The notes under the pieces are model-generated. The model saw nothing but the letters and a program-made list of their open reading frames with translations, did no database searches and was not told the DNA's origin. A stretch of 64,000 bases of DNA from Marinococcus luteus. GTDB taxonomy: Bacteria > Bacillota > Bacilli > Bacillales > Marinococcaceae. This document shows positions 91 to 10,112 of this stretch, piece after piece. Position 1 is the first letter of the stretch. Every line of letters starts with the position of its first letter. A program made the position numbers and the translations under genes. The DNA is taken from contig NZ_FNNC01000007.1 of the NCBI RefSeq assembly GCF_900106595.1, forward strand, positions 62,001 through 126,000, given 5' to 3'.

Positions 91-1170
91 TTAAACGCCG
101 GAATGGTTTTTGTACATCCAGAGCACGCCGCTTTTTAACAGACGGGCGACGCGGCCGGTAACTGCTGCTTTGGCAGTGCCGCCCATCACCCCGAAGCCGT
201 GCTTTTTGCCTAACGACCCGAGGGTGCCCTTGAGTTTGATTTCAGGCATCGTTTCCGGAAGCGGTTCGTTCTTCCATTGTTTTTTCATAATTGTGGCGAT
301 CTGTTCTGCCTGTCCCTCGGCAAGCTGGGCGCTTGGAGCGTGCGGCAGACTGGCACAGTCCCCGACGATAAAAATATTTTTATCGTTTGTTAGATGATGG
401 TGGGGGGTTAAAATTATGCGTCCTTTCCGGTCTTTTTCCGTATCCAGGTCACGGATGATTTTATTTGGCTGGATACCTGCAGTCCAAATGATTGCTTCAG
501 ACTGGATCCAGTCTTCGTGGTTGTACAGGCCTTCTGCTGTCACAGTAGTGATGTCGGAATTGCTGATGACTTCAACGTCGTGCTTTTCAAACCAGTTCTG
601 TACATAGTTACTAAGCCGTTTCGGGAACATAGGAAGAATGGTTTCCCCGCGGTCAAACAGACGTATGTGAAGATCTGAGCGGCTCTCCCGCAGTTCACTG
701 GCCAGTTCTACGCCGCTGAGTCCGGCGCCTACGATGCTGACAGCGGATTTTGGCGGTAGATTGCTGATAGCTTCGTATGTTCGGCGTGTTGCTTCCATAC
801 TTTGAATACTGTAGGAATGCTCTTCTGCACCGGGAACCCCGTGAAAGTTGTCGACCGAGCCAAGACCGGCAATGAGCTTGTCATATGGAAGCGAAGAAGA
901 ATCAGACATAACCACCAGCTGATTTTCCATGTCGATATGGTCGACCGTGCCAAAATGAATTTTTAAACGGGAATGGTCGGGAAACGGAACACGCACGTCG
1001 TGGTCCGACTCGGTGCCGGCAGCAAGCGCGTAGTATTCCGTTTTCATACAGTGGTACGGAAGTTTATCCACTAATGTAATATCAACATCCTGGGGAAGGT
1101 CGCTGCCGAGCACGCGCTGAAGAAAACGCATCCCCCCGTAGCCTCCGCCTAATACGATAATTTTTTCCAT
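91..1170 (-). CDS. yutJ: internal-start type II NADH dehydrogenase product (YutJ-like)
   Basis: ATG at 1170 gives a 359-residue protein starting MEKIIVLGGGYGG, the normal length and start for the YutJ branch of NDH-2 flavoproteins, which pass electrons from NADH to quinone at the inner membrane face without pumping protons. An AAAGGGGGACAAG ribosome site lies 7-15 nt upstream, inside the regulator's reading frame, so independent initiation is likely. Motifs: FAD-binding GGGYGG, NAD-binding GAGLSG, C-terminal GDCAS. Whether the free form, the fusion or both are made cannot be told from sequence. Confidence 0.65.
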   Translation of the reverse strand: MEKIIVLGGGYGGMRFLQRVLGSDLPQDVDITLVDKLPYHCMKTEYYALAAGTESDHDVRVPFPDHSRLKIHFGTVDHIDMENQLVVMSDSSSLPYDKLIAGLGSVDNFHGVPGAEEHSYSIQSMEATRRTYEAISNLPPKSAVSIVGAGLSGVELASELRESRSDLHIRLFDRGETILPMFPKRLSNYVQNWFEKHDVEVISNSDITTVTAEGLYNHEDWIQSEAIIWTAGIQPNKIIRDLDTEKDRKGRIILTPHHHLTNDKNIFIVGDCASLPHAPSAQLAEGQAEQIATIMKKQWKNEPLPETMPEIKLKGTLGSLGKKHGFGVMGGTAKAAVTGRVARLLKSGVLWMYKNHSGV

Positions 1171-1740
1171 TGTTTCTTGTCCCCCTTTGAGTAGCATGCT
1201 GTCTATGCCCGCGTGGACCAGCTGCATAAAATGATGAAGTAGTTCTTCGCGGTCGGTTTCAGCTCCGATGGATAGCTGATAGTAAAAATAGCTGTTGATG
1301 ATATGTGCCCATCGATTCGAAGAAATGGAAGGGTCTATTTCCTGCTGGCGGACACCGCTCTCAAGGAGCTGTTCCCACGTGCGAAGCAAAGCACTGTCAT
1401 GCTCGACCACATGGCGCCAAATGTGCCTGGTCAGGGAAGGGTTCAGGTGAAAGTCCCCCAGGAAATATCCGGCATAGGCACGAATACGGGAAGGAAGTGT
1501 CATGCGCTGAATTTTATACGTCTGCATGTATTCCTGCACCCTGAGCAGCCGGTCTTCTGCGAGTGCACGCATGATCGACTCTTTCGTAGGGAAGTAATTG
1601 AAAAAAGTCCCTTTGGCGACTTCGGCTGAAGCCGTGATTTCCTGTACAGTCGTCTGCTCAAAGCCCTTTTCCTGGAATAAATGCACAGCAGCCTGCAGAA
1701 TGCGGGAACGTGTCTGCTCTCGTTTTTCCGTTCGTTTCAT
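91..1740 (-). CDS. TetR-type regulator fused in frame to type II NADH dehydrogenase (YutJ-like)
   Basis: One uninterrupted 549-codon frame holds two proteins. Residues 1-190 are a TetR/AcrR regulator: the helix-turn-helix lies at about 10-60 (TTVQEITASAEVAKGTFFNY) and a ligand-domain-like helical part follows. Residues 191-549 are a complete type II NADH dehydrogenase/pyridine nucleotide-disulfide oxidoreductase with an FAD GGGYGG motif, an NAD motif IVGAGLSGVELA and FIVGDCAS near the C-terminus. The start at 1740 is preferred over 1776 because AGAGGGGGC lies just before it. There is no stop codon between the halves; the ribosome site of the dehydrogenase is translated as Lys-Gly-Gly-Gln within the regulator. 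A joined protein, two proteins from one message, or both are possible. In B. subtilis yutJ is a separate gene beside yuzB, as I recall it. Confidence 0.8.
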   Translation of the reverse strand: MKRTEKREQTRSRILQAAVHLFQEKGFEQTTVQEITASAEVAKGTFFNYFPTKESIMRALAEDRLLRVQEYMQTYKIQRMTLPSRIRAYAGYFLGDFHLNPSLTRHIWRHVVEHDSALLRTWEQLLESGVRQQEIDPSISSNRWAHIINSYFYYQLSIGAETDREELLHHFMQLVHAGIDSMLLKGGQETMEKIIVLGGGYGGMRFLQRVLGSDLPQDVDITLVDKLPYHCMKTEYYALAAGTESDHDVRVPFPDHSRLKIHFGTVDHIDMENQLVVMSDSSSLPYDKLIAGLGSVDNFHGVPGAEEHSYSIQSMEATRRTYEAISNLPPKSAVSIVGAGLSGVELASELRESRSDLHIRLFDRGETILPMFPKRLSNYVQNWFEKHDVEVISNSDITTVTAEGLYNHEDWIQSEAIIWTAGIQPNKIIRDLDTEKDRKGRIILTPHHHLTNDKNIFIVGDCASLPHAPSAQLAEGQAEQIATIMKKQWKNEPLPETMPEIKLKGTLGSLGKKHGFGVMGGTAKAAVTGRVARLLKSGVLWMYKNHSGV

Positions 1741-1927
1741 GGAATGCCCCCTCTGCGCAGCTGAAAGCATTTGCAAAAATAAAAAGTTACAATAGAGAGA
1801 ACAATTCGGTGGTGCAGCCAGTAAAAATGACTGCGGTCAATTTTGATTATAGAGAGGTACAGCTGCTTTGGCAACCAATTTTAAAAATATCAAACAATTT
1901 TGTGAACGGGGCATTCAAACGAATTGG

Positions 1928-1989: not shown

Positions 1990-2226
1990 GTGAGGCCAAT
2001 TATTGAGTTTTGCATGAGTAATTTGGCGAACGGCTCTCACGGGGCAATGGAAGAACTTGAAAAAGATCCGAATCTGGATGTTATTGAAGATATATGCTTA
2101 GGCTACTGCGGCCGTTGCTCTATGAATATGTACGCGCTTGTGAACGGGGAGCCGGTAGAAGGGGAAGATGAAAAAGATCTTCTTGCCAATATTTATACTC
2201 ATCTCGAAGAAAACCCAATGTTTTAA
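1990..2226 (+). CDS. yuzB: YuzB family small protein (DUF1450/UPF0349)
   Basis: The 78-residue product has the length and features of the YuzB family: an N-terminal RPIIEFCMSNL stretch and a CLGYCGRCSMNMYALVNGEPV segment with cysteines spaced like a thioredoxin-fold or metal site. The function of the family is unknown. The start is GTG at 1990 with GAAGAGGTGATGAAAG just before it; no ATG fits. It lies divergent from the NADH dehydrogenase gene as in B. subtilis and is closed by a terminator, so it is probably monocistronic. Confidence 0.85.
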   Translation: MRPIIEFCMSNLANGSHGAMEELEKDPNLDVIEDICLGYCGRCSMNMYALVNGEPVEGEDEKDLLANIYTHLEENPMF

Positions 2227-3438: not shown

Positions 3439-4536
3439 TTAATAGGATTTAACAATGTTATAGAAGGTATCCCGTTCCACCGGGGTTTTGCCTGCTGTTT
3501 TAATCAGGTGGATCAATTCTTTGCGGGTGATTCCCTGGGACGTCAGCGCGCCGACAGAGTGGGAGATTCGTTCCTCAATCAGGGTGCCGTGAATATCGTC
3601 GGAGCCAAATGTGAGTGCCATCTGGGTCAGCTGGGCGCCGATATTAATCCAGTACGCTTTAATGTGATCAAAGTTATCAAGCATAAGTCGTGAAATCGCT
3701 ACGGTCCGCAGGTCATCAAACGCGGAGGTGCGCTGGTGCAGGCCGGCATCGAGCTTGCGCGGCTGCATGGCGAGCGGGATAAAGACCATGAATCCATTGG
3801 TTTTGTCCTGCAGCGCACGAACACGATCCATATGAATGAGTCGTTCTTCCTTCGATTCAATCGACCCGTACAGCATCGTCGCGTGTGTACGCATGCCAAG
3901 GTCATGGGCGAGTTCGTGAGCTTCGAGCCATTCAAATGTCGTCGCCTTGTCCGGACTCATTTTCGCGCGGTAATTCTCTGTAAGAATTTCAGCACCGCCG
4001 CCTGGAAGCGTATCGAGTCCTGCCTTTTGCAGCTCTATGAGGACTTCGCGCATGCTGAGCCCTGCGTGACGGGCAAAAAATTCGATTTCAGCTCCTGTGT
4101 AGGCTTTAACTTTTGCCTGTGGGTAATGCTTTTTCAACACACGGACGGTGTTTAAATAATACTCAAACGGAACGTCCGTGTTGTGACCGCCAACGATGTG
4201 AAATTCCCGGATATTGTCATTCCAGCGTTTCTCTACGTATTCAAGCAGTTCTTCTTCATGCATCGTATACGCGTTTTCCTGGCCGGGCTTGCGTTTAAAT
4301 CCGCAAAACGAGCAGCTGGCTTCGCATACGTTGGTCGGGTTGATGTACATATTTTCGATAAAATAAACGTTATCCCCGTTTTTTCTTTCGTTCACCTCAT
4401 TTGCCAACTGGGCCACGGTTAACAGGTCTGCTGTTTCATAGAGGTAGAGGCCGTCTTCAATGGATAACCGTTCTCCTTCTCGGACTTTGTCGGCAATGCG
4501 CTGCATGTCGGCGTCGCGATTCAAGGTGATCGCCAT
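3439..4536 (-). CDS. mqnE: aminodeoxyfutalosine synthase (radical SAM, MqnE)
   Basis: MqnE joins 3-[(1-carboxyvinyl)oxy]benzoate to adenosine in the futalosine route to menaquinone. The 365-residue protein has the radical-SAM cluster motif CEASCSFC and, further on, LPGGGAEI, an ATMLYGSIE segment, MVFIPLAMQP and LDNFDHIKAYW. These fit MqnE better than the related MqnC. The ATG is preceded by GGAAAGGAAGG. It is convergent with dapF and unlinked here to other mqn genes. The best alternative is MqnC (dehypoxanthine futalosine cyclase). Its presence implies that this organism makes menaquinone by the futalosine rather than the classical men route; a UbiD-type gene at 42183 fits that. Confidence 0.87.
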   Translation of the reverse strand: MAITLNRDADMQRIADKVREGERLSIEDGLYLYETADLLTVAQLANEVNERKNGDNVYFIENMYINPTNVCEASCSFCGFKRKPGQENAYTMHEEELLEYVEKRWNDNIREFHIVGGHNTDVPFEYYLNTVRVLKKHYPQAKVKAYTGAEIEFFARHAGLSMREVLIELQKAGLDTLPGGGAEILTENYRAKMSPDKATTFEWLEAHELAHDLGMRTHATMLYGSIESKEERLIHMDRVRALQDKTNGFMVFIPLAMQPRKLDAGLHQRTSAFDDLRTVAISRLMLDNFDHIKAYWINIGAQLTQMALTFGSDDIHGTLIEERISHSVGALTSQGITRKELIHLIKTAGKTPVERDTFYNIVKSY

Positions 4537-8909: not shown

Positions 8910-10112
8910 ATGGCAGGAAAAACAAATATTGTTGTTTTAGGCGCTGGCTATGCTGGTCTCGTTTCCGCTTCAAAGCTCGCAAAAGAAGTAGGAACAGACA
9001 ATGCAAACATTACGCTGGTCAGCAAGCACGATTATCATTACCAGACAACCTGGCTGCATGAGCCGGCTGCAGGAACGCTTCACCATGACCGCACCCGCAT
9101 TAAAGTCAGTAAAATTCTTGATTTGAATAAAATTAACTTCGTGCAGGACGAAGCGACCAAAGTCGTTACAGAAGAAAAGAAAGTAACGCTTGCTTCCGGC
9201 GGCGAACTGCAGTACGACTATATTATCGTAGGCGTTGGGGCTATCTCTGAAACGTTCGGCATCGAAGGCGTTTATGAAAACTCCTATCACCGCTGGACCG
9301 TGGACGGTGCCCGCCAGATGAAAGACCGCATTGAATATATGTTTGCGCGCTATCACAGTGACGAAGCAAAAGAAGAAGACCTGACGTTCGTTGTAGCAGG
9401 CGCCGGCTTTACCGGTATGGAATTTATGGGCGAGCTGAGTGAACGCGTACCTAAGCTTTGCAAAGAGTACGATGTACCGCGCAATAAAGTGAAAATGTAC
9501 GTCATCGAAGCGATGCCGACAGCACTTCCAGGCTTCGATCCGGAGCTTGTGGAGTACGCAATGAATTTACTCGAAAACCGCGGGGTGGAATTCAAACTGG
9601 ATTCACCGATTAAAGCAGTGACGGAAAACAGTGTAGAGCTGAACACTGGTGAATCCGTAAAAACATCGACAGTCATCTGGGCAACTGGTGTCCGTGGCAA
9701 TCCGCTTATCGAAGAGTCCGGATTTGAAAACAACCGTGCCCGTGTGAAAGTTGATGACGATCTGCGTGCTCCCGGCCATGAACGCGAATTTATTATCGGT
9801 GACTGTTCCTTGATCATCAATACAGAAATCGACCGTCCGTTCCCGCCGACAGCTCAAATCGCTCTCCAACAGGGCGAAACAGCTGCCGATAACATCAAAG
9901 CATTGATGGAAGGACGTCCAACAGAAGCATTTGTAGCTGATATTAAAGGTACAGTGGCTTCTCTTGGTGGAAAAGAAGCGATTGGCGTTGTAGGTTCGAA
10001 AAAGCTTTACGGCCGTCCCGCCTACTTTATGAAAAAAGTGATCGAAAATCGTGCATTATGGGTTCTCGGCGGCTTTGGCTTCCTGCTTCGCAAAGGACAA
10101 AGCCCGTTCTAA
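8910..10112 (+). CDS. yumB: type II NADH dehydrogenase (YumB-like)
   Basis: This is a second NDH-2: a 400-residue membrane-associated flavoenzyme oxidising NADH and reducing menaquinone. Motifs: FAD-binding VVLGAGYAGL at the N-terminus, NAD-binding VVAGAGFTGMEFMGEL near residue 155, EFIIGDCSL near 300 and FPPTAQIALQQG, typical of bacterial NDH-2. The start at 8910 is preferred over 8895 because GGAAGTGA lies 6-8 nt before it. It is probably monocistronic, and likely controlled by the cell's NADH/NAD+ ratio through the upstream Rex-like site. Confidence 0.9.
   Translation: MAGKTNIVVLGAGYAGLVSASKLAKEVGTDNANITLVSKHDYHYQTTWLHEPAAGTLHHDRTRIKVSKILDLNKINFVQDEATKVVTEEKKVTLASGGELQYDYIIVGVGAISETFGIEGVYENSYHRWTVDGARQMKDRIEYMFARYHSDEAKEEDLTFVVAGAGFTGMEFMGELSERVPKLCKEYDVPRNKVKMYVIEAMPTALPGFDPELVEYAMNLLENRGVEFKLDSPIKAVTENSVELNTGESVKTSTVIWATGVRGNPLIEESGFENNRARVKVDDDLRAPGHEREFIIGDCSLIINTEIDRPFPPTAQIALQQGETAADNIKALMEGRPTEAFVADIKGTVASLGGKEAIGVVGSKKLYGRPAYFMKKVIENRALWVLGGFGFLLRKGQSPF

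Follow-up and report, generated by a model that had tools for sequence, protein, structure and literature searches.

The window, a stretch of 64,000 nucleotides from Marinococcus luteus (contig NZ_FNNC01000007.1), holds near its start a minus-strand gene in which a complete TetR-type repressor (190 residues) is followed in one frame by a YutJ-type flavoprotein (359 residues). The frame runs from an ATG at 1740 to a stop codon at 93-91, and its translation gives 549 codons with no internal stop. An earlier note on this DNA had reported a TetR regulator and a flavoenzyme with no stop between them, and this is confirmed, the minus strand being open throughout from 1740 to 91. The features of the locus, each with the evidence for it in brackets, are:

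91..1740, minus strand: TetR-YutJ fusion gene, 549 residues in one frame (frame translation and Pfam; conserved in relatives).
1171..1740, minus strand: TetR half and linker, residues 1-190 (Pfam, predicted structure).
91..1170, minus strand: YutJ-type flavoprotein half, 359 residues, with its own in-frame ATG at 1170-1168 (Pfam, structural match, comparison).
1180..1188, minus strand: internal Shine-Dalgarno site AAAGGGGGA, read as K-G-G in the linker (comparison, codon statistics, pairing energy).
1747..1754, minus strand: ribosome site AGAGGGGG for the start at 1740 (sequence).
1828..1839, no strand assigned: operator-like palindrome TGACTGCGGTCA, which is TGACCGCAGTCA on the minus strand (comparison).
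1846..1874, minus strand: predicted promoter of the fusion, TTGCCA-17-TATAAT (same bases in loci L079 and L080).
1990..2226, plus strand: divergent neighbour, a DUF1450 protein, the conserved partner across the promoter region (Pfam and locus comparison).
8910-10060, plus strand: a YumB-like type II NADH dehydrogenase (NDH-2), a paralogue that shares 30% identity with the enzyme half of the fusion and has an AQIALQ motif (sequence comparison).

The DUF1450 neighbour is presumably YuzB. Between yuzB and dapF lies a small plus-strand protein (2293-2547) with a CPYCGTRN motif and no Pfam match, and a minus-strand radical SAM protein with a CofH/MqnC C-terminal region (3439-4536) adjoins diaminopimelate epimerase.

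The Pfam domains of the fusion are TetR_N (PF00440; 9.4e-16, 57.8 bits against a cut-off of 24) at residues 14-60 and Pyr_redox_2 at residues 193-472; proline dehydrogenase is not among the families found. The predicted structure has nine TetR helices across residues 3-185, including the all-helical C-terminal domain that in TetR regulators takes up the ligand and dimerises, and then a linker of about six residues in which pLDDT falls under 50 (residues 185-189). A flavoprotein fold is predicted for the enzyme half. The model has a mean pLDDT of 78.4 and a pTM of 0.55, with the relative placement of the two halves and residues 505-549 being unreliable.

The enzyme half has two GxGxxG dinucleotide-binding motifs (GGGYGG and GAGLSG) within the Pyr_redox_2 fold. 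It shares this fold, both motifs and about 30% identity with type II NADH dehydrogenases, such as the NDH-2 of C. thermarum (4nwz/5kmr) and the YumB-like paralogue of the window. The quinone site of type II NADH dehydrogenase is marked by the motif AQxAxQ. Unlike these enzymes, the fused enzyme is attached to a TetR half, reads AQLAEG in place of AQxAxQ (with flanking residues that are invariant in 47 rows), and has a shorter C-terminus. Where type II NADH dehydrogenases have C-terminal membrane-anchoring helices, the model shows the end of a single helix, with a pLDDT below 50. In B. pseudofirmus OF4, two NDH-2-like enzymes have reportedly been studied. Among structures, the fused enzyme matches best with 9a5s, titled as an integrative model of YUTJ-FER, at 57% identity to the YutJ chain. 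Because of this match and the absence of AQxAxQ, the name YutJ-type flavoprotein is preferred, and the label of type II NADH dehydrogenase, under which the enzyme was at first described, is doubtful. By the title of 9a5s, ferredoxin is a candidate alternative to quinone as electron partner; the words YutJ and ferredoxin are absent from the main text of PMC10090944, a 2023 paper guessed to be the source of 9a5s. According to a passage of PMC12772218, yutJ is one of the NADH dehydrogenase genes of B. subtilis for which no enzyme was detected in the spores.

The fusion is widely conserved. The whole frame is kept in all five genomes of the genus set and in 19 of the 29 of the family set (the own genome included in both), in the latter at 59-100% identity and with an internal stop in none of the 19; the other 10 of the 29 match in the enzyme half alone. 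Of 397 sampled genomes of the order, 349 show a match at 1e-60, and at least 39 places span both halves in one open frame. In a class sample, 2 of 398 genomes pass a cut-off so strict that it would overlook divergent fusions like L133, and both belong to the order. When a named genome collection was scanned with the TetR half, the best 80 of at least 522 relatives were kept, comprising 46 fused loci and 34 without recognisable YutJ or yuzB on the stretch. Both parts thus stand in one frame in 46 of the 46 named loci that hold both among these 80, with a linker of constant length. The junction is open in 36 of 36 fused loci of the first set and in 46 of 46 named ones, 22 loci being common to the two sets. 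Among these best 80 of at least 522, the fused genera are Marinococcus, Alteribacillus, Salibacterium, Aliibacillus, Halalkalibacter, Halalkalibacterium, Alkalihalophilus (including A. pseudofirmus OF4), Alkalihalobacillus, Alkalihalobacterium, Alkalicoccobacillus, Shouchella, Pseudalkalibacillus, Rossellomorea, Salsuginibacillus, Caldalkalibacillus and some Bacillus species; the closest among the named matches listed is Marinococcus halotolerans, with 98% identity in the TetR half. The search for the two-domain architecture suggested by the earlier note therefore found it in many genera, and the stop or frame break at the junction that the note had asked for in close relatives was looked for and did not appear, while the unfused relatives examined have no TetR half at all. 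By this comparison, the gene is a conserved fusion of many salt- and alkali-loving bacteria.

TetR and YutJ halves that lie side by side as separate genes occur at none of the best 80 of at least 522 loci; thus, at the 80 kept loci, translating the whole TetR half always yields the fusion. An ancestral state in which the TetR gene stood apart from a neighbouring yutJ was likewise not seen among these 46 fused loci and 34 without YutJ or yuzB. Of the two halves, TetR changes more quickly; in L081, for instance, its identity is 57%, versus 74% for YutJ. Seven of eight pairs compared differ in both halves, and in those seven dN is lower than dS in both, which places each half under purifying selection. 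The most divergent fusion, L133 from Caldalkalibacillus mannanilyticus, has a TetR half of 28% identity and keeps the palindrome and the internal ATG, with a ribosome site that has no AGG.

The linker of the fusion is a translated ribosome site (AAAGGGGGA…ATG): the sequence AAAGGGGGACAAGAAACAATG spans 1188-1168 and ends in the ATG at 1170-1168, which is in phase with the long frame. The enzyme-half ATG is present in 36 of 36 fused loci of the first set and in 46 of 46 named fused loci. In the named loci, the codon five places before this ATG is AGG in 43 of 46, GGG in two and AAA in one, counts that come from related rows and so are not independent, in a Shine-Dalgarno pattern that is partly constrained by the encoded residues. 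The linker codons are mostly AAA AGG GGA, AAA AGG AGA or AAA AGG AGT, and the two GGG loci and the AAA locus retain a purine-rich site. Arginine at the linker site is encoded by AGG in 43 of 43 cases, whereas AGG accounts for 63 of 1,249 other Arg codons (about 5%) of the same genes. In synonymous conservation, the linker Arg ranks first of 363 columns with a score twice that of the second. Elsewhere, silent sites have turned over, with dS at 0.29-0.96 in five of the eight pairs compared. Pairing with the ribosomal anti-Shine-Dalgarno sequence averages -7.3 kcal/mol at the 46 junctions versus -1.6 at 471 other in-frame ATGs, of which 6.2% pair as strongly as the weakest junction.

The earlier note had placed a ribosome site and an ATG at 1170 in phase inside the long frame; the comparison bears this out and further indicates that the site is conserved as nucleotides across the fused loci. 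A similar site is recognised by eye in 31 unfused yutJ rows, which suggests that the fusion retained the ribosome site of yutJ itself and thus that a free 359-residue YutJ is a likely second product. Apart from the fused gene itself, no match to the enzyme half in the own genome exceeds 30% identity, and second matches reach 30-34% in other fused genomes of the family; the fused gene is, thus, the only close YutJ copy seen. The proposal that one message gives products of 549 and 359 residues is the best reading of the locus, and is well supported by comparison of the fusion and its internal site.

Upstream of the fused genes is a palindrome, TGACC-NN-GGTCA; in the window, the -10 box starts 12 bases ahead of it. 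The form TGACCNNGGTCA stands just after the -10 box of the fusion promoter in 36 of 36 fused loci versus none of the 28 unfused loci examined. Counted by its core, TGAC-N4-GTCA, the palindrome is present a single time in the interval from yuzB to the fusion gene at all 36 fused loci, the same loci on which the palindrome was first spotted by eye, and in none of the 28 unfused ones, which represent 23 distinct genes (five were fetched twice; L031 and L069, with no yuzB on the stretch, were dropped). All 46 named fused loci have the core no more than 330 bases upstream; 22 of these loci share their last 900 bases with the first set and about 24 are fresh. Measured from the first base of the best TATAAT-like box, the palindrome starts 11-13 bases further on in 43 of these 46. 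In the window it would cover the predicted transcript start, a usual place for repression, and is regarded as a putative operator near the fusion's own promoter.

Other copies of the palindrome are few. The own genome has four sites of a looser pattern versus nine of a reversed control, and the three beyond the fusion locus are all inside long open frames. Thirteen fused relatives have 34 sites, of which 10 are at the fusion locus (in G001, G003 and G028 the own locus site misses the stricter pattern used there) and 24 are elsewhere, versus 15 for the reversed-pattern control; the TetR half may, by this excess, have further targets. Nine of the 24 were inspected: six are within frames of at least 200 codons, two, harder to classify, are within frames of 113-114 codons and one is intergenic. 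The intergenic site (locus L170 of genome G383, 1501-1529) consists of the palindromes TGACCATGGTCA and TGACTACGGTCA, 17 bases apart, and sits just upstream of a different TetR gene with a similar AKGTFFNYF helix. Palindromes at a second TetR gene of this type independently suggest that such helices bind this palindrome. With so few copies in the genomes, a mainly local autorepressor is likely and is the simplest reading, and a broad regulon is not supported by the site counts.

The unfused yutJ genes of B. subtilis and other Bacillaceae encode the same enzyme and resemble the fusion in their divergent yuzB neighbour (adjoining yutJ in 28 of 30 unfused loci examined) and ribosome site. Unlike TetR-YutJ, the unfused loci examined have no TetR half between yuzB and yutJ and, in the 28 described above, no operator; no TetR match was found between the two genes even in 10 order-sample loci with stop-containing upstream extensions (L057-L065, L070). 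A quick tree was made from 92 YutJ domains, of which 60 are from fusions, 31 from single genes and one is a very long outgroup; L133, L060 and L162 are long rows on it. The fused state needs five changes on this tree, three of them forced by starred branches, a count that does not distinguish gain from loss. Ten unfused genes of the window's own family group with the fused Salsuginibacillus, among genes that are mostly fused, and the unfused gene L071 is placed among the fused Shouchella. The operator is absent from L071 and from nine of the ten unfused family genes checked (L031 dropped). These nested genes without the operator fit a joint loss of repressor half and operator in some lineages, with repeated gains as the alternative. 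Four unfused loci of the family (L027, L033, L035 and L036) have a different TetR-like gene directly downstream of yuzB, with similarity limited to about 50-60 residues of the DNA-binding part. The unfused yutJ of L035 differs from that of its close relative L033 by one base in an A run near the start, which breaks the frame through either an assembly error or a mutation.

The reading favoured here, with moderate confidence, is of an autoregulated gene that yields two proteins from one message and in which the state of the flavoprotein tunes DNA binding by the repressor half. Ribosomes starting at 1740 would make the TetR-YutJ chain, and those starting at the internal site, at 1170, would produce YutJ on its own. 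Through its TetR half, the chain would dimerise, bind the palindrome at its own transcript start and repress the gene, while the bare enzyme from the internal start would carry out catalysis and may pair with the chain, diluting repression. Since no stop separates the halves, every repressor molecule would carry a flavoprotein, the state of which (reduction of its FAD, NAD(P)H, or an electron partner, for example ferredoxin) thus most likely tunes DNA binding; the sequence of the fusion gives no sign of coupling between the halves. The earlier note had likewise suggested that redox state, or else attachment to the membrane, could control DNA binding. The enzyme may, in this manner, be under its own control switch. 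A more specific version is put forward tentatively: a redox switch in one chain, in which electron state or ferredoxin docking would set the grip of the repressor and free YutJ in the dimers would set the gain. If this is true, the ratio of the two starts would be a dial that comes with the redox feedback loop of these salt- and alkali-loving Bacillaceae.

The fusion may instead be incidental to regulation, with an ordinary autorepressor that responds to its own small-molecule ligand, a YutJ attached by gene merger and free YutJ performing the enzyme work. We consider this rather unlikely. The TetR half has a complete nine-helix fold, and by this model could have a ligand of its own; the internal start would still provide free enzyme, and the TetR half is the faster evolving of the two. 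A merger without consequence is, however, difficult to reconcile with an open frame and a constant linker length in all 46 named loci when a stop is easily gained, with halves that are never separate among the best 80 of at least 522 loci, or with the joint absence of repressor and operator from unfused relatives. It is improbable that the fusion is the sole product and its internal ribosome site a relic preserved by the residues it encodes. While many rows do share K-R-G as linker residues, the use of AGG for all 43 Arg codons there, when it is rare among Arg codons elsewhere in these genes, the first rank among 363 columns, and the persistence of a purine-rich site where Arg is replaced (two GGG, one AAA) all argue for conservation of the nucleotides. 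An artefact of sequencing or assembly, in which a stop between two ordinary genes was lost by error, has a negligible probability: the same open frame recurs in 5 of 5, 19 of 29 and 46 loci of independent records, and this junction bears no supporting sign, although the one-base difference in L035 shows that such errors or mutations occur. A sequencing error or a recent stop loss was ruled out by the open frame in the genus, family and named sets.

The nearest working analogue of the autoregulated two-product gene is PutA, described in a passage of PMC6978683 as a trigger enzyme, a (proline) dehydrogenase that represses its own put operon. TetR-YutJ is like PutA in that a single polypeptide is both a flavoenzyme and a DNA-binding repressor of its own gene, with own-gene control predicted for TetR-YutJ. 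In PutA, the DNA-binding domain is a ribbon-helix-helix, and the flavin switches the protein between DNA and membrane. By contrast, TetR-YutJ has an unrelated DNA-binding domain (TetR) and an unrelated enzyme, and its internal start would give the enzyme alone; TetR-YutJ is, thus, like PutA at most and outside the PutA family. In-frame internal starts are known from bacterial genes, including those of the long and short forms of CheA and the forms of IF2, in which one message gives products that share a C-terminus. Compared to these, the inner start of TetR-YutJ is predicted to part a repressor-bearing enzyme from the bare enzyme. No description of a TetR-YutJ or TetR-NDH-2 chain was found in the literature searched, which was covered mostly at the level of titles and abstract openings and included few subscription papers.

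The fusion provides a TetR-type regulator with a candidate sensor in the conserved redox enzyme covalently joined to it; a putative operator is at hand, and the bare enzyme from the same message would serve as a natural control. The role of YutJ, which is found in 349 of the 397 sampled genomes of the order and is barely mentioned in the literature searched, becomes directly testable. The locus also presents a case in which the ribosome site of an enzyme appears to be kept alive within the linker of another protein across many genera.
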